NCBI RefSeq assembly: GCF_040438645.1
Contig: NZ_CP159253.1
Span: 4,030,001-4,094,000 of the forward strand
Length of the DNA stretch: 64,000 nt
Origin: Mesorhizobium sp. WSM2240
GTDB lineage: Bacteria; Pseudomonadota; Alphaproteobacteria; Rhizobiales; Rhizobiaceae
Direction of reading: 5' to 3'
Every line of letters begins with the position of its first letter. Position 1 is the stretch's first letter. Of this stretch, positions 36,547 through 46,386 are shown one piece after another. A program made the translations under genes and the position numbers. The notes beneath the pieces were generated by a model. The model did no database searches and had not been told where the DNA came from. It was given only the letters and a program-made list of their open reading frames with translations.

Positions 36547-37494
36547 TCAGCTTTCGAGCGCCGCCTTCACGGCCGCGGCAGCATCGCCGCCGTCGAAAGT
36601 CGTCACACCCTCCAGCCAGGGCGTGACCGCGTCCGGATTGGCCTTCAGCCAGGCGGTGGCGGCGTCCTTCGGGTCGGCGCCGTCATTGAGAATCGCGCCC
36701 ATGATCTCGTTTTCCATCTCGAGCGAGAAAACCATATTCTTGAGCAGCGCGCCGACATTCGGGCATTCGGTGGTGTAGCCCGCGCGCACGTTGGTGTGGA
36801 CGGTGGCGCCGCCGAAATTCGGACCGAATACCTCATCACCGCCCGACAGGTAGGCCATCTCGATGTTGGCGTTCATCGGATGCGGCTCCCAGCCGAGGAA
36901 GACCACGTCCTCGCCAGACGACGCCGCCTTCTGTACCGCCGACAGCATGCCGGCCTCCGAGCTTTCGACGAGCTCGAAACCCTTGAGGCCGAACTTGTCG
37001 GCGTCGATCATGTCGAGGATCAGCCGGTTGCCATCATTGCCGGCTTCGATGCCGTAGATCTTGCCGTCGAGCTTGTCCTTGAACTTGGCGATGTCCTCGA
37101 AGCTCTTGAGACCGGCGTCATAAGTGTGCTGCGGCACGGCGAGCGTGTATTTCGCGCCTTCGAGATTGGTGACGATCGTCTCGACCGTCTTGGCTTCGAG
37201 ATAGGGCTTGATGTCTGCTTCCATGGTCGGCATCCAGTTGCCGAGGAATACATCGACGTCCTTGTTGGCGAGCGACGTATAGGTGACAGGCACCGAAAGC
37301 ACCTGCACGTCCGGCTCGTAGCCGAGCGCCTCGAGGATGACGCTGGCCGTCGCTGTGGTGGCGGTGATGTCAGTCCAGCCGACATCGGCGAAGCGGACCT
37401 GCTTGCAGCTTTCCGGATCGGCGGCAAGGGCTGCGCCCGACCAGAGCATCGCCGTCAGGCCGAGCGCTGCGGCGAATGTTTTCATACGCGACAT
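36547..37494 (-). CDS. choX: choline-binding periplasmic protein ChoX
   Basis: The binding protein (315 residues) has a clear signal peptide (to about residue 24, ending in AALAAD). Aromatic residues that should form the choline cage are visible in DVGWTD, GNWMPTM and LGWEPHP. This matches the ChoX fold, an OpuAC-type substrate-binding protein. The start is the ATG at 37494 with GGGAGA upstream. It is the first gene of choXWV, used in rhizobia for choline uptake and osmoprotection or as a carbon and nitrogen source. Confidence 0.9.
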   Translation of the reverse strand: MSRMKTFAAALGLTAMLWSGAALAADPESCKQVRFADVGWTDITATTATASVILEALGYEPDVQVLSVPVTYTSLANKDVDVFLGNWMPTMEADIKPYLEAKTVETIVTNLEGAKYTLAVPQHTYDAGLKSFEDIAKFKDKLDGKIYGIEAGNDGNRLILDMIDADKFGLKGFELVESSEAGMLSAVQKAASSGEDVVFLGWEPHPMNANIEMAYLSGGDEVFGPNFGGATVHTNVRAGYTTECPNVGALLKNMVFSLEMENEIMGAILNDGADPKDAATAWLKANPDAVTPWLEGVTTFDGGDAAAAVKAALES

Positions 37495-37777
37495 CTGTAT
37501 TCTCCCATTGTGATCTGTCGGCAAAGCGGAAATTGCGTTTTCTTCTACCGCTCGAGTTACGGCAGCCAAACACCATTTTGGCGCGGTTTCAAGCGCGATG
37601 ACCGCGCAGGCGACGCCGCCGACTTTTCCATAGGCGACAAACTCCTGTTCGCTGCGCGACGGCGGGCGAACGCGCGGTCGGCAAATCCCGATGCGCCCTT
37701 TTCTTCCCGTCTTTCAATCGCCATGCGTGCTGCCTATATTCGCCCGACGATCTGAAGCCGAGGCTGGAGGGACCACT
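37495..37777. other. intergenic region between choX and the coiled-coil gene
   Basis: A 283-base divergent region that must contain the choX promoter and the promoter of the AAA+ operon. The plus-strand frame open from 37691 has no ribosome site before 37778. I saw no clear operator. Confidence 0.4.
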
Positions 37778-38866
37778 ATGGCGACACTGCAGAATTTCGA
37801 TGCCGAAATTGCCAAGACAAAGCAGGTCGTCGAGGAGATGCGCTCCAAGATCGATCAATCGGCCGTGGTGCTGGAAAAATTTGCAAGGACCGACCAGAAG
37901 ATCGGTCAGGCCGATTTCGACATCGAAAACGCCCGCATCGAAGATGTTCTGAAGCAGCAGAAGGTGATGGAAGGCAACATCGCCGACCTGATCATCGGGC
38001 TGGAAGACGCCACAAATGTTTTCGGCACCGAGTTCGAGAACATGAAGAGTTTTACCGGGTGGGAAACCTTCGTCGGCATCTTCTCGGACGGATCCAAGCA
38101 GCGCATGCGCACCGACCGCGTCCGCAACATGTCGCTGGCCGGAAACCTGCAGGAACTGCTGTCGAAGTCCGACACCATCGTCGGCATACTGAAGGCGCAA
38201 AAGCAGGTTCTGGAGCAGCGCTACGCCACCTCCGAAGCGAGCCTTGCGCAGGTCATCGAGCGCCGCAAGGCGACCATTGGGAACCTGACCTCGGTGCAGA
38301 AGCGCATCGAGGAGTTGAACCCGATGCTGCTCGACATCGAGAACAGGATCGCGGCTTCCACGAGCCAGACCGAGCGCACCCAGCTCGAGGGCGAGCGCTC
38401 CAAGCTCGCGACGGAATACAATGAGAGGCAGGCGAAGGAGCAGGAGCTTCTGGCCGAAAGCCAGACGCTGGAGCGCTACACCTCCATGTTCCAGACCTTC
38501 GTGGATTCGCTGAATAACCAGATCGCCGCGCAGAACACTCTGATCAACAAGCTGACCATCGATACCGAACAGCGTATCGTGCTCTACAAGGCTTTGGAGG
38601 ACAGTTTGAAGACGGCCGCGCAGCAGGACGTCGCCCACAAGATCAACACGCTGGGCAGCCAGGTCGACAACACCGCAGAAGAGACCATGGCCGGCATCGG
38701 CGCGGCGGCGCAGAAGCACATCGGCGACCTGCTCGAACTGCACGAGAAGAACATGGTCGCGACCGCCGACATACAACGCCGCAAGAAGCTCGCCGACGAT
38801 GCGTTCGCGCGACGCTTCGAGGAGGTGCTGAGGAAGCACAACGCGTCGGATTATGTACAGCCCTAG
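37778..38866 (+). CDS. coiled-coil protein, first gene of the AAA+/DUF2333 operon
   Basis: A soluble 362-residue protein almost wholly helical, with long heptad-rich stretches (about residues 20-60, 130-230 and 240-330), no signal peptide and no membrane segment. Its general plan, a coiled-coil bundle, resembles TelA-like (toxic anion resistance) proteins but I cannot confirm that relationship by motif. The start ATG follows GGAGGGA. Four further genes follow on the same strand with gaps of 18-49 bases, so this is likely an operon. I do not recognise a family with certainty. Confidence 0.75.
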   Translation: MATLQNFDAEIAKTKQVVEEMRSKIDQSAVVLEKFARTDQKIGQADFDIENARIEDVLKQQKVMEGNIADLIIGLEDATNVFGTEFENMKSFTGWETFVGIFSDGSKQRMRTDRVRNMSLAGNLQELLSKSDTIVGILKAQKQVLEQRYATSEASLAQVIERRKATIGNLTSVQKRIEELNPMLLDIENRIAASTSQTERTQLEGERSKLATEYNERQAKEQELLAESQTLERYTSMFQTFVDSLNNQIAAQNTLINKLTIDTEQRIVLYKALEDSLKTAAQQDVAHKINTLGSQVDNTAEETMAGIGAAAQKHIGDLLELHEKNMVATADIQRRKKLADDAFARRFEEVLRKHNASDYVQP

Positions 38867-38897
38867 CGGCAAAGGGACTATCGGACGAATTTGCAGA

Positions 38898-40040
38898 ATG
38901 ACCTCCTCTGACCCAGCCGCCCGCTATTTCGAGGCCATTCGCGCCGCGCTCTCGGGGCTGGAAATCTTCATGCGCGACGACCGCTCGCCGCTCTACCGGC
39001 ATGGCATCGTCGCCAAGGTGGTCGCCGAATACATTGCGCGCCTGGAAAAATCCTTTGCCTGCTGGGAAAACCGGCTGGGCTTCATGGACAAATTCAGGAT
39101 CTCGCGCGCCGAAAGCGGCTTTCCGGTCTACCAGAATATACTGGAGCTCGAGAACGACCGCCGCACGGCCGCGAAGCGCCTGGCCGGCATACCCGAACCC
39201 GGCGAACTGCGTGTCGAGATGGCCGACTTCATCCTGCGCCACAAGGAGTTCCCGTCGGCCCTCCAGAAATCGATGGCCGAGCGGCTCTATCTGGAAGACG
39301 TCAAGGACGGCGTCGTGTTCGGGCCATTCCTGCTGGCGCAGACGGCAAAGGTATCGGTCAATCCAAAAACCTTCCGGCCGTATTACCTCGTGCATTGGGC
39401 GTCGTTCGACGGCACGGCCAACCTGCCGCTGATTTATATGGCCACGGTCGAGGATTCGTCCGAGGCGATGGTCAAGCAACTGGTCGGCAGCGACGGCAAG
39501 CTTAGCGAGAAAGTCGAGATCCCGCTGCCCGTCGACGGGCTGCTCAATCCCGAGCTTGCCCACCGCTTCGACGATTTCACCGAGAAGAACTCGGCCTATA
39601 CGCTGTCGCCGGCGACCATCGCTTCCAATCTCGACAAGGATTTTCCCGAACTGCATCCCAAGCAGCTCCGGCGCGTGGTGCTCGGGCCGTTCTATTCGGC
39701 CGGCATCACCGAGCACAATTCGGCGGTGGCCGACGTGCTCTCCAAGGTGCGCAAACAGGAAAACGCCTGGCTGCTGACCTGGACGATCCAGGAGATCTAC
39801 TCGAAGGGCGAGCGGCCGGGGCGCAAGGGCCTGTGGTCGAGCGAGCCGGCGACCGAGGAATTCTACATCAACACCGACGATCTCGAAGCCGCCCGCCAGG
39901 GCGTGTCGAGTTATCAGAAGCACGCGCTGGTTCCGCACGAGGCCTACCAGGCGCTCTACGCCGCGGGCGAGGCGCAGAAGATTTTTCTCGGCTACAAGGT
40001 CCACATCCTGTCAAAGGGCCGGGTGATTTCAGATGTGTGA
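38898..40040 (+). CDS. uncharacterised protein of the AAA+/DUF2333 operon
   Basis: This soluble protein has 380 residues with no signal peptide, membrane helix or recognisable catalytic motif. It is mixed alpha/beta, with segments such as VVFGPFLLAQTAKVSVNP and YYLVHWASFDGT that look like beta strands. The ATG at 38898 is preferred; an earlier ATG at 38853 overlaps the previous gene. It is tightly placed between the coiled-coil and AAA+ genes. It could be an adaptor or substrate subunit; I infer no activity. Confidence 0.75.
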   Translation: MTSSDPAARYFEAIRAALSGLEIFMRDDRSPLYRHGIVAKVVAEYIARLEKSFACWENRLGFMDKFRISRAESGFPVYQNILELENDRRTAAKRLAGIPEPGELRVEMADFILRHKEFPSALQKSMAERLYLEDVKDGVVFGPFLLAQTAKVSVNPKTFRPYYLVHWASFDGTANLPLIYMATVEDSSEAMVKQLVGSDGKLSEKVEIPLPVDGLLNPELAHRFDDFTEKNSAYTLSPATIASNLDKDFPELHPKQLRRVVLGPFYSAGITEHNSAVADVLSKVRKQENAWLLTWTIQEIYSKGERPGRKGLWSSEPATEEFYINTDDLEAARQGVSSYQKHALVPHEAYQALYAAGEAQKIFLGYKVHILSKGRVISDV

Positions 40041-40089
40041 GTTTTTGCGGCCAGATCGGCGTTGCGACCAATCAAGTTAGGGACCCTTC

Positions 40090-42000
40090 ATGGACACCGG
40101 CCTGACCACGATTCCCGAAGCGGACATTGAGAAGCATCGCCCCACCGCACAGTCGATGATCACACGCATCGTCGTGCTGGAGGATGGGAGCGGACAGTCC
40201 GGCACCGCTCTCGCCGGCACCGGGCGGCGTTTCGTTTCCACGGTTTCGGCCGGTTCGGTGCGCAAAACCCGCGAGATCGAGCTGTCGAAGACCGTCGCCG
40301 CGGTCCGGCCCGGCGACCAGCTCATGACGATCGGCCAGCACGCCTTGCTCTATCGCGCCCGGCGCGGCCTGTCGGTGGCGCTCGCCATTGCCGAAGTGTT
40401 TGCGCGCGGCAACGACCTCGAAAGCCTGCAGGCCAAGAATGCACGCGCGCCGCTCGAAGGCGATGAGGCCGCGCAGTTCAAGAAGCTGCTCTCGGCGTCG
40501 GCCTATGTTTCGGCATTCAGCTTCGCATCCTACCTGGCGCAGTTGATCGACGGCGACGGGGAGCCGCCCAACGATATCAAGGAGCCGGACTTCCTTTTCG
40601 ACACGCCGCAGGACGCGCTGAAATCGCTGATCGCCGGCCTCGATCGGGCGATCACCGGCGCAAAGGACGACGCCGACCTGATGACGCGCGCCCGCGCTTT
40701 CGCCCGTATCGCGATCGAGGGGCTGTTGACGCGCAAGAACCGCTTCGATGGGCTTGGTGTTTTCGAGAACGCGCATATCCGCATCGAGAGCGACGATTTC
40801 ACAGTGGATGGCTTCGATGTCGCGCCGGGCAAGAAGTCGAAGCCGCTGGTGATGACCTTCAAGAAGCCCGAGGAGGTCGTCGGCAACCACATCGCCAAAT
40901 ACCAGGCCGTAAAACTCTCCAAGATGCTGATGGCCTACGATTTCGACCGCGAGCTGAACCCTTTCGTCGAGCTCGGCGGCTTCCTGTTCACCTTCATCGG
41001 CGACGGGGCGCCGGGCACCGGCAAGACGACGCTGATCCAGATGATCGCCGGACTTGTGCACGGCTACTGCCAGGTCGCCGGCTATCCGTTCGTCTACGAG
41101 AATTTCGGCGTCGACCAGATCTCGTCCTATCAGGGCAAGTCCGGCCAGAGCTGCAAGCAGTTCATCAACAATGTGCTGAACCCGCGCGCCATCGGCTTCG
41201 GCACCATCGACGACATCGACCAGGTCGCGGCCAAGCGCTCCGACGACCGCGCGTCGGCCGGCCAGCAGGAAATCACCGGCGTTTTGATGGAGAGTTTTGG
41301 CGGCGCGTCGACCGTCGTTCGCGGCAATTGCTCCTTCGGCATGTTCTCCAACCATCCCGAAAACGTCGACGATGCGCTGCGCCAGCGCGCCGGCGCTCGC
41401 TGGATGGTCGACGGACCGCAGACGCGCGAGGACTACATAGACATTTTCGTCCTGCTGGCGGGCAAGAACCACAAGATTGATCTCGGCGACCACGACCTCT
41501 ACGCGGCGCAGGAGATTCAACGCGCGGTGGAGGATGCGTACGAGGCACATTCCAAGCCGCAGGAGGACGGGCTGGCGAGGGTCTATGAGCGCTTCATGAA
41601 GGAGAACGGCGAACCCAAGACCATGGCCGATGTCGGCGCCTACCTGCACATGATCAAGGAGGCAGAGCCGCGCTTCACCGGCCGCGCCATCAAGAACGTC
41701 ACCGACGCGATCAAGATGCGGGCGATGGACATCGAGCTGCCCGACGACTGGTTCGAAAAGCCGGAAGCCTTCATGCGCAAGGGCTATGACGAGAAGAAAG
41801 CTATGATCGAGGAACTGCGCGGACCGTTCTCGATGGACATGGTCATGCAGGAGATCAACCGCTACGCGGATTCCGAATTCCGCTATTCGGACCGCTCCGA
41901 CGATGCGGCGGTATCGAAGATGCTGCGCGACGCCCGGCTGCGCGAGCGCGCCGCGCGCGAGATGGAGGAGTTGAAGGCGAAGGGGACGTGGAATGCGTAG
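40090..42000 (+). CDS. atypical AAA+ ATPase, central gene of the AAA+/DUF2333 operon
   Basis: This 636-residue protein has one AAA+ module. Walker A is GAPGTGKTT at 306-314 (Lys312) and a Walker B-like segment, GTIDDIDQVA, lies near 371-380 with its acidic pair at 374-375. The ~300-residue N-terminal part shows no membrane helix and no family I know; an Arg-rich RYADSEFRYSDRSDD segment and helical C-terminus follow the module. The protein is unlike MoxR, ClpX or FtsH types. Fixed neighbours suggest a multi-subunit complex powered by this ATPase, perhaps acting at the membrane through the DUF2333 protein. That role is inference. Confidence 0.85.
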   Translation: MDTGLTTIPEADIEKHRPTAQSMITRIVVLEDGSGQSGTALAGTGRRFVSTVSAGSVRKTREIELSKTVAAVRPGDQLMTIGQHALLYRARRGLSVALAIAEVFARGNDLESLQAKNARAPLEGDEAAQFKKLLSASAYVSAFSFASYLAQLIDGDGEPPNDIKEPDFLFDTPQDALKSLIAGLDRAITGAKDDADLMTRARAFARIAIEGLLTRKNRFDGLGVFENAHIRIESDDFTVDGFDVAPGKKSKPLVMTFKKPEEVVGNHIAKYQAVKLSKMLMAYDFDRELNPFVELGGFLFTFIGDGAPGTGKTTLIQMIAGLVHGYCQVAGYPFVYENFGVDQISSYQGKSGQSCKQFINNVLNPRAIGFGTIDDIDQVAAKRSDDRASAGQQEITGVLMESFGGASTVVRGNCSFGMFSNHPENVDDALRQRAGARWMVDGPQTREDYIDIFVLLAGKNHKIDLGDHDLYAAQEIQRAVEDAYEAHSKPQEDGLARVYERFMKENGEPKTMADVGAYLHMIKEAEPRFTGRAIKNVTDAIKMRAMDIELPDDWFEKPEAFMRKGYDEKKAMIEELRGPFSMDMVMQEINRYADSEFRYSDRSDDAAVSKMLRDARLRERAAREMEELKAKGTWNA

Positions 42001-42008
42001 TCCTGTTT

Positions 42009-42033
42009 CCTCCCCCGTGAATGGGGAGAAGGA
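42009..42033. repeat. short palindrome overlapping the ribosome site of the next gene
   Basis: CTCCCCC and GGGGAG form a hairpin copy of the dispersed element; its 3' arm runs straight into AGAAGGA, which serves as ribosome site for the GTG start at 42037. The repeat may therefore affect translation of that gene. Confidence 0.55.
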
Positions 42034-42036
42034 ATA

Positions 42037-43323
42037 GTGGAACTCCTGCGCGCCAACGAATTGATCTACGGGCGGCTGCTGCCGGTCGAGGAGCCGCATC
42101 TGATCGAGCGCTACAACAAGGCGTTGAAGGCGTTCGGGCTAAAGCCCACCAAGCTCGAGAAATTCGACATCGACCGCACGGGATTCTCGCCCCAGATTGC
42201 CGAGGAACTGGGCGACCCGCACTATCTCGACCCAAACCAGGTCAACCGCCGCTTCATCATTCTGACCCCGGCGCAGGCAGACCTGCCGGTGGTGCACACG
42301 GCGTTCTCCAACACCTCGCAGCTGGTCTACGAGTTCTTCGCGAAAAACTCGCGCGCCATCGACGCGCTGACCATCAAGGACGTGATCTACGGCGAGATCG
42401 AGGATTCGGTTTCCAGGGTCGAGGACATCGAGGACCTGATTTCCATCAACCAGGTCGAGTTCCGGGTCCTGTCGGCCGAGGACGTGCTCGGCAAGGCCTC
42501 CGAGCTTGCGACGCTGGTCGACCGGTTGAAGCAGGAGCCGGACGCCTGGCGCGACAACAAGATGCTGGAGCGGATGGTGGAACTCGCCAAGGTGACGGGC
42601 GACATCCGCGAGAACGCGCTGGTGCCGGACCAGGTGATCTTCCGCCACAACGCCTTCTGGACCAGCCATTTCGGCGGGCTCTATGTCTTCATCGACAAGG
42701 ACATGACGACGGTGGTCAGCGATCCGGGAGCCCCCGGCTTCCGCCGCTCGCGGCCCTGGCAGGTGAGCTATCTGTCAATCCGCGACGCCGACCGCGTGTT
42801 CCGTTTCCTCGCCTCGACCGGGCGCATCGAGCTGCCGCGGGCGTCCTGGATCGAGAGTTCGAACTATCTCGAGCACCGCGCCGAAATGGCGATCGGCGCG
42901 CTGATCCGTGATGTCGAGCCGAACGTCGATCCCGGCAAGTTCGACCGCGTCTGGCTGCAAACCTGGATCCATAGCCACGCCGAACTCATCAACAAGAACG
43001 GCACCTTCCCCTTCCTCAACGCCGCCAAGCGCGAGATCGCGCAGCTCGGCCAGTTGAAGATCAACGAAGTCAATCCGCAGCATCGCTTCCTGGTGGTGCG
43101 CGCCAAGCCCGACCATCCCGACGCCTGGCTGACCAACCGGCTGATCTCGGATTTCGTGCCGGCCGACTTCGTGTCTCGCTACGTCTTCAACAAGCAGGGC
43201 TTCTACAAGGATTACGAGCAATTCGGCGAGGCATGGCGACGCCATGTTGTGAACACGCTGAAAACTACATATCTGAAAGACAAGGAGGCGTTCCGGGCGC
43301 GCCTCTACGGCCTGACCGATTAA
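42037..43323 (+). CDS. uncharacterised protein, possibly DUF6638 family
   Basis: This 428-residue soluble protein starts at a GTG with AGAAGGA upstream. It lacks signal peptide, membrane helices and obvious catalytic motifs. The N-terminal sequence (LLRANELIYGRLLPVEEPHL) and the length fit a family I recall as DUF6638; certainty is limited. It shares with the second operon gene a similar mix of strands and conserved aromatic residues, but not enough to claim homology by eye. Placement between the AAA+ and DUF2333 genes implies joint function. Confidence 0.75.
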   Translation: MELLRANELIYGRLLPVEEPHLIERYNKALKAFGLKPTKLEKFDIDRTGFSPQIAEELGDPHYLDPNQVNRRFIILTPAQADLPVVHTAFSNTSQLVYEFFAKNSRAIDALTIKDVIYGEIEDSVSRVEDIEDLISINQVEFRVLSAEDVLGKASELATLVDRLKQEPDAWRDNKMLERMVELAKVTGDIRENALVPDQVIFRHNAFWTSHFGGLYVFIDKDMTTVVSDPGAPGFRRSRPWQVSYLSIRDADRVFRFLASTGRIELPRASWIESSNYLEHRAEMAIGALIRDVEPNVDPGKFDRVWLQTWIHSHAELINKNGTFPFLNAAKREIAQLGQLKINEVNPQHRFLVVRAKPDHPDAWLTNRLISDFVPADFVSRYVFNKQGFYKDYEQFGEAWRRHVVNTLKTTYLKDKEAFRARLYGLTD

Positions 43324-43341
43324 AAAGACCGAGGGGGTGGC

Positions 43342-44481
43342 ATGCTTGATCCGATCGTGAACTTCTTCACCCGGATTTTCCAATGGATCGGGCGCGGCAT
43401 CGGGCTGGTCATCGGCGTCATCCTGTGGCCGTTCATGTGGGCCGGGCGCTGGTACACGCAGCGCGGCTGGATCCTGAAGGCGGTGCTCGGCCTGGCGCTG
43501 CTGGTGCTGATCGGCCTCTACGGATATTTCATCTGGAACACCCAGGTCTGGACCAATTTCAACCCGACCTACGCCGAAGCGTATAATTTCACGCAAGCCC
43601 CGGCGCAGCCCGCTCCTTCCGCCACTGCGCCGGTCGAGGGCGCCGCCGACGTCGAGGGCGAGGTCAAGACCTGCACCACCTCAGCAATCACCCAGGTGGC
43701 CGCCGATCTCATCGACTTCAACGTCAACCAGAATGCCTGGATTTCGTCGATGATCCTCTACAAGCTGGGGCTCTTCGGCATGGATTGGGACCGCACGCCG
43801 TTCCTCGACAACAAGGCCTCCTTCCAGCGCGGGGTCAATCAAGCGATCCGCCGGACTTCCGTGGAACTGGTGGACACGCTGGGCCGCGTTCGCGGCACCA
43901 GCCAGATAGACCAGAACCTGCAGGACGCGCGCGGTGCGATCACCTTCGACGAGGAGACATGGTATTTCGGCATCAGCCCGTTCGGGCCGAAGACGCCGAC
44001 GCCGAGCTTCTATCGCACAGCCGCGCGCAGCCTGCGCGCCTTCAACGACCGGCTGCAGAAGTGCGAAGTGGTATTCAATGCGCGGGCGGACAATCTGGTG
44101 CAGTTCGTCGACCGCATCGCCAGTGACATAGGCTCGACCTCGGACATGATCAGGGACCGTTCGCAGAACTACAACAGCGGCTGGTTCGATACGCGAGCCG
44201 ACGACCGGTTCTGGTTCGCCTACGGCCAGCTCTACGGTTATTACGGCATCCTCACCGCCGCCCGCCATGATTTCAGGCAGGTCATCGACTCGCGCGAACT
44301 TGGCCCCCTGTGGAACAACGTCGAAGGACAGCTCAAGGCCGCTCTCGCGATCCGGCCTTTCATCATTTCCAACGGCCGCGAGGATGGCTGGATCATGCCA
44401 ACCCACCTTACCACGATGGGCTTCTACGTCCTCAGGGTGCGGTCGAACCTGGTCGAGGTCCGGTCGGTGCTGGATCGGTGA
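43342..44481 (+). CDS. DUF2333 family membrane-anchored protein
   Basis: A 379-residue protein with amphipathic and hydrophobic segments at the N-terminus (about residues 15-35 and one clear membrane helix at 46-66, AVLGLALLVLIGLYGYFIW). A long domain, probably periplasmic, follows, beginning with a Pro/Ala-rich linker. The conserved Trp/Tyr-rich stretches and length match DUF2333. It is the last gene of the five-gene group and the only one with a membrane anchor, so it could tether the complex to the inner membrane. Confidence 0.85.
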   Translation: MLDPIVNFFTRIFQWIGRGIGLVIGVILWPFMWAGRWYTQRGWILKAVLGLALLVLIGLYGYFIWNTQVWTNFNPTYAEAYNFTQAPAQPAPSATAPVEGAADVEGEVKTCTTSAITQVAADLIDFNVNQNAWISSMILYKLGLFGMDWDRTPFLDNKASFQRGVNQAIRRTSVELVDTLGRVRGTSQIDQNLQDARGAITFDEETWYFGISPFGPKTPTPSFYRTAARSLRAFNDRLQKCEVVFNARADNLVQFVDRIASDIGSTSDMIRDRSQNYNSGWFDTRADDRFWFAYGQLYGYYGILTAARHDFRQVIDSRELGPLWNNVEGQLKAALAIRPFIISNGREDGWIMPTHLTTMGFYVLRVRSNLVEVRSVLDR

Positions 44482-44573: not shown

Positions 44574-44706
44574 CGTCCCCTGTCGCTTTTCGCGCATTCT
44601 CCGACTGTTTTGAGACGGCGCGGCAGCAAGCGGTCGGGCTTCTATGCGCCCAACAGAAGCGCCGCTCTGCGGCGCGAGCCTCACCACAACGCCCGGGGGA
44701 ACCGCC

Positions 44707-46386
44707 ATGGCCGAAGTAAAATCCGACATCGAGATCGCGCGCGGCGCCGACAAGAAGCAGATCCAGGAGATCGGCGCCAAGATCGGCATTCCGCACGAAC
44801 ACCTCCTGCCTTACGGCCACGACAAGGCGAAGGTCTCGGCCGACTTCATCAGGTCGGTGAAGGGCAACCGCGACGGCAAGCTGATCCTGGTCACCGCGAT
44901 CAACCCGACGCCGGCCGGCGAAGGCAAGACGACCACGACGGTCGGCCTCGGCGACGGCCTGAACCGCATCGGCAAAAAGGCGATCGTGTGCATCCGCGAA
45001 GCCTCGCTCGGACCCAATTTCGGCGTCAAGGGCGGCGCGGCCGGCGGCGGCTACGCCCAGGTCGTGCCGATGGAGGACATGAACCTCCACTTCACCGGCG
45101 ATTTCCACGCCATCACCACCGCCCACAATCTGCTGTCGGCGCTGATCGACAACCACATCTACTGGGGCAACGATCTCGGCATCGACATCCGCCGCGTCGC
45201 CTGGCGGCGCGTCATGGACATGAACGACCGGGCGCTGCGCGAAATCCTCTGCTCGCTCGGCGGCGTCGCCAACGGCTTTCCGCGCGAGGCCGGCTTCGAC
45301 ATCACCGTCGCCTCCGAGGTGATGGCGATCCTGTGCCTGGCGACAGATCTGAAGGACCTGGAAAAGCGCCTCGGCGACATCATCGTCGCCTACCGCCGCG
45401 ACAAGACGCCGGTCTATGCCCGCGACCTCAAGGCGGACGGCGCGATGGCCGTGCTCCTGAAGGACGCCATGCAGCCCAACCTGGTGCAGACGCTGGAGAA
45501 CAATCCGGCCTTCGTGCATGGCGGCCCGTTCGCCAACATCGCGCATGGCTGCAACTCGGTGGTGGCGACCACGACGGCGCTGAAGCTCGCCGATTATGTG
45601 GTGACGGAAGCCGGCTTCGGCGCCGACCTCGGCGCGGAAAAATTCTTCGACATCAAGTGCCGCAAGGCCGGCCTGAAGCCGGCGGCGGCGGTGATCGTCG
45701 CCACGGTGCGGGCGCTCAAGATGAATGGCGGCGTCAAGAAGGAAGACCTCGGCGCGGAGAATGTCGCGGCGGTGAAGAAGGGCTGCGCCAATCTCGGCCG
45801 CCACATCGAGAATGTGAAGCAGTTCGGCGTGCCGGCGGTGGTCGCCATCAACCACTTCCACTCCGACACCGAGGCCGAGATCCAGGCGGTCAAGGAGTTC
45901 GTCGCCTCGATGGGCGAGGAAGCGATCCTGTGCAAACACTGGGCGCACGGCTCGGCAGGCATCGAGCATCTGGCCCACAAGGTGGTGTCGCTGGCCGAGT
46001 CGGGCGGCTCGCAATTCGCGCCGCTCTACCCGGACGACATGAAGCTGTTCGACAAGATCAACACCATCGTCAAGCGCATCTATCGCGGCGACGAGGCGAT
46101 CGCCGACAAGAGCGTGCGCGACCAGTTGCACCAGTGGGAGGCCGCCGGCTACGGCAAGCTGCCGGTGTGCATGGCCAAGACGCAGTACTCCTTCTCCACC
46201 GACCCCAATCTGCGCGGCGCGCCGACCGGCCATACCGTGCCGGTGCGCGAAGTGCGGCTCTCGGCCGGCGCCGGCTTCATCGTGGTGATCTGCGGCGAGG
46301 TGATGACCATGCCCGGCCTGCCCAAAACACCCTCCTCCGAGAAGATCTTCCTCAACGAGACGGGCCAGATCGAAGGGCTGTTCTGA
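44707..46386 (+). CDS. fhs: formate-tetrahydrofolate ligase
   Basis: Fhs makes 10-formyl-tetrahydrofolate from formate, ATP and THF, feeding C1 units into purine and other synthesis. The P-loop TPAGEGKT is at 68-75, and the family segments [31 protein letters not shown] region and [13 protein letters not shown] are intact. Length 559 is typical. The ATG at 44707 follows GGGGGA; the earlier frame start at 44644 has none. A strong terminator follows. Confidence 0.96.

Follow-up and report, generated by a model that had tools for sequence, protein, structure and literature searches.

Among the classical AAA ATPases, Vps4 with ESCRT-III, NSF with SNARE, and katanin act on helical assemblies. As to the protein families met at the locus considered here, no paper on DUF6638 was found in the open-access literature, and a general search for a described role of the system likewise returned nothing there (both searches covered open-access papers other than bioRxiv preprints). 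A search of it for TelA/XpaC also yielded no paper. DUF2333 is mentioned in PMC5256989 and DUF1523 in PMC10783040 and PMC12561309, in each case with no function given in the passages concerned. The claim made earlier from the sequence alone (below, the sequence-only reading), that no published role is known for the group, is supported by the results for DUF6638, DUF2333 and DUF1523 as far as open-access papers go, and no described role of the module was found within this literature.

The five genes and their products

Within the window analysed, a stretch of 64,000 nucleotides from Mesorhizobium sp. WSM2240, five open reading frames, A to E, follow one another on the plus strand with spacings of 31 (A-B), 49 (B-C), 36 (C-D) and 18 bp (D-E); the ORF coordinates thus bear out the five same-strand genes with gaps of 18-49 bases noted in the sequence-only reading. 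The gene upstream, on the opposite strand (36547-37569), would encode a ProX-like substrate-binding protein, and an Fhs-like gene (44644-46386) lies downstream of E, both named by eye from their translations. The annotated copy of the locus in S. meliloti has, in the ProX position, the substrate-binding protein of a choline ABC transporter and then thymidine kinase, and, in the Fhs position, formate-tetrahydrofolate ligase. A scan against NCBIfam brought none of the five window proteins near a family cut-off.

The product of gene C (40090..42000, 636 aa) matches the AAA family PF00004 over residues 306-436 (E-value 1.8e-10, 41.8 bits against a cut-off of 21.2), as do all 25 of the 25 C members scanned. 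Invariant over 25 sequences are GDGxPGTGKT (304-313), Y347-x-G349, D374/D375, N421, R431/R433/R437 and G531-R532, which we take to be, respectively, Walker A, an aromatic pore loop, Walker B, sensor 1, the arginine fingers and sensor 2. From these motifs, named by eye after those of known AAA proteins, we expect C to be active, as a translocase or remodeller of the classical AAA type. Its closest sequence matches in the PDB are an i-AAA protease, the proteasome Rpt subunits and Afg2. The AAA core begins near residue 300, and the half of the protein that precedes it matches no family, in agreement with the unusual N-terminal half remarked upon earlier. Gene B (38898..40040, 380 aa) encodes a protein with no Pfam family, 25-31% identical to its distant copies (alignment A2). 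Gene D (42037..43323, 428 aa, GTG start) encodes a DUF6638 protein (PF20343, E-value 1.5e-70, 238.8 bits against a cut-off of 27), whose AlphaFold model is compact alpha/beta (pLDDT 87.9, pTM 0.83) and has no good match among the 505 PDB chains compared.

Gene A (37778..38866, 362 aa), also with no Pfam family, is 40-45% identical to its distant copies (alignment A1) and is modelled by AlphaFold as an all-helical rod (pLDDT 74.8) with a long hairpin formed by residues 120-193 and 197-295. Structure comparisons gave no functional match for the models of A and D. Gene E (43342..44481, 379 aa) encodes a membrane protein that matches DUF2333 (PF10095, E-value 5.6e-18, 65.4 bits against a cut-off of 22), with hydrophobic stretches, located by eye, at about 20-35 and 43-65 near the N-terminus. 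The set therefore contains, as had been supposed, a single ATPase (C, by Pfam AAA) and a single membrane protein (E, by DUF2333 and its hydrophobic stretches).

Distribution, gene order and inserted genes

C was found in 88 of the 151 genomes sampled from the window's family, in 63 of 149 genomes of another family (that of genome G067) and in 7 of 385 genomes of a class-wide draw spread over families. Genomes usually carry a single copy; where two matches occur, as in a few cases, one gene is divided between contigs or frames. Of 398 genomes of the phylum, 26 have DUF6638. A profile of A detected it in 79 of 131 genomes of the window's family, 76 of which are among the 88 C-positive ones; the three others are G854, which is 68% complete, and G043 and G107, with a divergent A only.

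Gene order was compared over 139 relative loci, selected for encoding C or D and possibly including near-duplicates: 80 from genome contigs (the best 80 of at least 583 C relatives), 55 from other genomes and 4 from plasmid records. Wide stretches were taken from 15 of the 26 DUF6638 genomes of the phylum draw, 18 of the 88 C-positive genomes of the window's family, two further C-positive genomes of the class-wide draw and 20 of the 63 C-positive genomes of G067's family. Whichever of the A-E homologues are present, they lie on a single strand and in a single order in all 139 loci of this selected set, and A, B, C and D occur together in all 137 loci uncut by contig ends, among them loci from several families and from Vibrio plasmids; in the 15 DUF6638 genomes with a wider stretch, A, B and C precede D in every case. 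The fifth gene varies: DUF2333 follows D in 98 loci and DUF1523 in 36, neither is found in three, and two loci end at contig edges (A-B-C and C-D-E). As for the question, raised by the sequence-only reading, of whether the gene order is conserved, all five genes thus keep the same order and strand in 98 of the 139 relatives. Its five-gene set stands for the constant core A-B-C-D, but not for the fifth gene, which is exchangeable between DUF2333 and DUF1523 and absent from 3 of 139 loci. The conserved unit is A-B-C-D, and E is lineage-specific, being swapped elsewhere for DUF1523 (PF07509, assigned by Pfam in all 4 copies scanned). In 25 of 64 loci compared, D and DUF1523 are separated by sTM5, a short gene whose product has two hydrophobic stretches. 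The three loci with no fifth gene are on two Vibrio plasmids (>900 kb), where mfd comes after D, and on one Rhizobium leguminosarum plasmid, where D is followed by a gene that reads in translation as sigma-factor-like.

In a tree of C (FastTree, 62 sequences, rooted on Vibrio), the DUF2333 and DUF1523 types form two clades with support of 1.0 each, the R. leguminosarum plasmid copy belonging to the former. The C proteins of G262, from the window's order, and of G050, from another class, are nested in the DUF1523 clade, and their positions suggest transfer. Within the window's family, the fixed surroundings suggest vertical descent. The best 80 C relatives (mostly Mesorhizobium, but also Aminobacter, Aquamicrobium, Phyllobacterium and others) retain the complete series ProX, A, B, C, D, E, Fhs in 71 cases; of the remainder, Fhs alone is missing from the stretch in six and ProX alone in one, and contig ends truncate the other two.

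Additional genes are accommodated mainly between C and D, where 85 of 138 gaps exceed 250 bp and 53, the window's included, are shorter; gaps of this length number 13 for A-B, 12 for B-C and none of 99 for D-E, and 34 of 36 gaps between D and DUF1523 are also long, many of them containing sTM5. Genes could be assigned in 66 of the 85 long C-D gaps, all of them on the operon strand: DUF559 in 39, TM11 in 11, PIN in 8, HEPN/DUF4145-like in 3, putAbiC and AbiJ_NTD4 in 2 each, and unknown in 2, one locus being counted twice. The 19 gaps with no assigned gene include nine below 300 bp, the rest having other or no clear genes. DUF559, PIN, putAbiC and AbiJ_NTD4 are supported by Pfam in one example each, DUF4145 falling below the cut-off; the genes in 8 B-C gaps, recognised by eye, are presumably Fic-like. 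Seeds of eight cargo groups gave 0 matches in about 1.6 Mb of flanks.

The commonest cargo, DUF559, behaves as a mobile cassette. Palindromes border both ends of the gene in 30 of its 39 slots and one end in 9; they are mostly missing from the other cargo types. In most of the 14 copies compared, the cassette ends are 33-bp inverted repeats of each other with few changes. In a set of 30 DUF559 loci from 12 genomes, taken from 54 matched stretches and including at least four (L240, L247, L255, L258) that are the same C-D slot, palindromes flank the gene on both sides in 9, on one side in 19 and on neither in 2; of 2000 control places drawn from the flanks of L001-L080, mostly inside genes and hence a lenient control, 7 had them on both sides and 52 on one. 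Such a palindrome also occurs in 10 of the 53 short C-D gaps. The window's own C-D gap contains a lone imperfect palindrome (42007..42034, core CTCCCC...GGGGAG at 42010-42028) that resembles those bracketing the cassettes in relatives; no DUF559 gene is present in the window's genome. A DUF559 Vsr-like endonuclease of Caulobacter is described in PMC12907096, the main text of which does not mention palindromes. The inverted palindromes that bracket the cargo liken it to elements of the REP/REPIN type; those are, however, associated with the REP-associated transposase, whereas the cassette here carries a DUF559 nuclease. The extra C-D genes are probably insertions and not parts of a machine, and DUF559, given its mobile behaviour, is left out of the model below.

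Relatives that lack B, C and D

In four genomes (G043, G107 and G253 of genus g2, and G265 of genus g5) a divergent A, designated A', is followed directly by E at a distance of 85-238 bp, B-C-D being gone, and the pair is flanked by ProX on one side and by Fhs on the other, the latter 1.3-5.8 kb from E. Profiles of B, C and D found no trace of these genes among the ORFs of at least 40 aa between ProX and Fhs. DUF6638 is absent from all four genomes, and a genome-wide absence of C is established for G043 alone. The unity of the five genes assumed in the sequence-only reading does not extend to these relatives, in which the A-E pair persists alone, and this survival bears on what the membrane partner does by itself. 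The loss may have happened once or twice among the four genomes, the three of genus g2 perhaps sharing a single event.

The frame of A' is open, but residues 273-294 of A, LEDSLKTAAQQDVAHKINTLGS in the window, are missing in the three g2 genomes, while G265 lacks 284-305 and, in addition, 202-231. Where the two can be aligned, A' is 22-29% identical to A, with divergence throughout. In complete loci the same part of A is well conserved: region 271-310 has the highest identity to the window of six A regions in each group (93.3% in 13 DUF2333-type, 59.1% in 29 DUF1523-type and 67.5% in two other sequences), and segment 274-295 has 74% identity to the window, whole A averaging 53%, and ranks 23 among 341 segments of 22 residues, of which 269-290 is the top one. 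Segment 274-295 falls in a low-confidence part of the A model, and low confidence combined with conservation might fit a docking segment.

As to E, the four genomes keep 61.5-65.5% identity to the window's protein past residue 75, where complete loci average 62.8%, whereas over the first 75 residues they reach 42.7-57.3% against 66.8%, which indicates that E has changed too. These N-terminal 75 residues contain the hydrophobic stretches of E.

In our preferred interpretation, the B-C-D engine disappeared together with the part of A that served it, while A and E kept a job and the N-terminus of E changed somewhat. The loss of the block in relatives devoid of B-C-D hints that the motor grips A there, and we infer that the ATPase module would engage A at this block, with E as the membrane anchor. 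On the other hand, the loss of the block may reflect a general decay of A, since A' is divergent throughout and G265 has lost 202-231 as well.

Candidate functions and comparison with known systems

A tentative reading, which we put forward at somewhat less than even confidence, is that A-B-C-D constitute a cytoplasmic AAA+ remodelling machine acting on A and tethered by E or DUF1523, with a likely role at the envelope. In this case C would assemble into an ATPase ring and pull on or remodel the helical rod A via the conserved block near residues 269-294; B and D would be dedicated co-factors, adaptor or scaffold; and the lineage-specific membrane protein, DUF2333 here and DUF1523 elsewhere, would tie A, and hence the machine, to the inner membrane. 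The likely task would be envelope repair or homeostasis, and not core metabolism, since the module is absent from many relatives, and a role in envelope stress is our best guess from these sequence data. Against such a machine speak the three A-B-C-D loci that have neither E nor DUF1523 beside them and the frequent occurrence of both membrane families in genomes with no DUF6638.

Swaps of the membrane gene, together with the persistence of the A-E pair alone, are what could be expected of functionally separate genes held together in a persistent operon by co-transcription only; A, B, C and D nevertheless adjoin in all 137 uncut loci, across several families and Vibrio plasmids, albeit in loci selected for C or D, and we regard an association by co-transcription alone as improbable. 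Slightly better placed, although still unlikely, is a stress module of the Tel/Kla type, in which A would be a distant relative of TelA and the operon would protect against toxic oxyanions or envelope-active antimicrobials. The comparison of A with TelA gave the top score of 45 profile pairs and is collinear over 142 columns, but the profile probability is 8%, and 10 of 360 block-shuffled TelA alignments scored as high. Similarly, a Foldseek search of A against viral models placed tellurite/toxic-anion resistance proteins (362-387 aa) at ranks 14, 18, 33 and 44, yet with E-values of 0.008-0.04, TM-scores of 0.22-0.32 and generic coiled coils around them in the ranking. Against PF05816, the window's A gave no match at an E-value of 5 or below; for the other 26 A members, TelA is not among the 25 families listed out of 57. 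The search for the TelA family found none in the window's genome, and TelA proper occurs separately, also in genomes that bear the module. The likeness of A to TelA/Kla thus consists in a weak collinear profile and fold resemblance lying below any family threshold, and A can be called no more than a putative relative of the family.

An anti-phage system, in which A-B-C-D would sense infection and the genes of the C-D and B-C gaps would be exchangeable effectors, is quite doubtful. The operon-strand cargo of 66 of the 85 long C-D gaps, the Fic-like genes and the lack of matches to the cargo seeds in the flanks speak in its favour; but 53 of 138 C-D gaps, the window's among them, are short, and the DUF559 gene forms a cassette, bounded by inverted repeats of its own, which is present elsewhere too. 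Furthermore, the ten flanking proteins scanned look housekeeping-like, and PADLOC has no family for the 25 D sequences and gave for the five window proteins only weak AAA-core matches for C (the best being TRIP13, E-value 2.1e-4), with A and E at 0.12 or worse. Relatives of C are absent from phage records and, by the search patterns used, from viral contigs, and the fixed surroundings that suggest vertical descent also argue against it. That A is a ClyA-like alpha-helical rod inserting into membranes, with C as its chaperone, seems to us most improbable of all.

Returning to the membrane-linked machine of the sequence-only reading, which is still a putative one, the locus provides an AAA+ module (88 of 151 and 63 of 149 genomes in two families), mostly single-copy, for which no described role was found in the open-access literature, and its natural experiments, the swap of the membrane gene and the joint loss of B-C-D and of the A block, may point to the ATPase substrate and to its grip site. 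C is a classical AAA member, D a DUF6638 protein and E a DUF2333 protein, but the set as a whole corresponds to no known system. E and its replacement belong clearly to DUF2333 (PF10095) and DUF1523 (PF07509), respectively; these families, however, occur mostly or often in genomes with no DUF6638 (59 of 68 and 10 of 21). From Vps4, NSF and katanin the system differs in the N-terminal half of C, which matches no family, in B and D, for which no counterpart was found, and in that A is a presumed substrate. The 50 matches listed for the A model do not include the ESCRT-III/PspA superfamily, although A may still adopt that fold. With Vps4/ESCRT-III, NSF/SNARE and katanin, C shares the AAA core, a Y-x-G pore-loop-like motif, arginine fingers and sensors, and a long helical partner, A, is modelled here too. 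By this analogy one could imagine, as a rather unlikely special case, a distinct AAA+ disassembly machine in which a C ring with B and D would unmake or reshape membrane-tethered polymers of A via the block of ~22 residues; equally speculatively, it might in principle do for bacteria what Vps4 does with ESCRT-III or NSF with SNARE, its tether being swapped between lineages.

The DUF559 cassette between C and D

The gap between C, the AAA ATPase gene, and D, the DUF6638 gene, harbors in some relatives a DUF559 nuclease cassette of about 530 bp, whose termini are 33-bp inverted repeats, each of them a palindrome in its own right. DUF559 is present in 39 C–D gaps (for example, in the fetched loci L023, L032, L045 and L167), and palindromes flank it on both sides in 30 of these 39. 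The cassette also occurs at other sites in related genomes and, as a whole, looks like a small mobile element; no description of it was found in the titles or abstract openings of the open-access papers listed for DUF559 or palindromes. A palindrome of the kind bracketing these cassettes lies in the C–D gap of the window itself (42007–42034).

Other genes inserted in the operon

Fic-like genes, named by eye, are located between B and C on the operon strand (L001, L034, L044, L049, L051, L055, L056 and L168). Among L068, L179, L204 and L067, the C–D gaps hold further genes whose translations, judged by eye, read as a P-loop NTPase that begins in a cold-shock-like manner, MazF-like and HicB-like ORFs, a GHKL-like ATPase, and an antisense phospholipase-D-like gene.

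Plasmid copies and DUF2333 apart from A

Two plasmids of more than 900 kb, from Vibrio vulnificus and V. parahaemolyticus (L206, L207), carry A-B-C-D followed by mfd, and a Rhizobium leguminosarum plasmid (L208) carries A-B-C-D without E, the gene after D reading as a sigma factor. In L269–L275, from other genomes of the window's class, DUF2333 is present with no recognizable A adjoining it.
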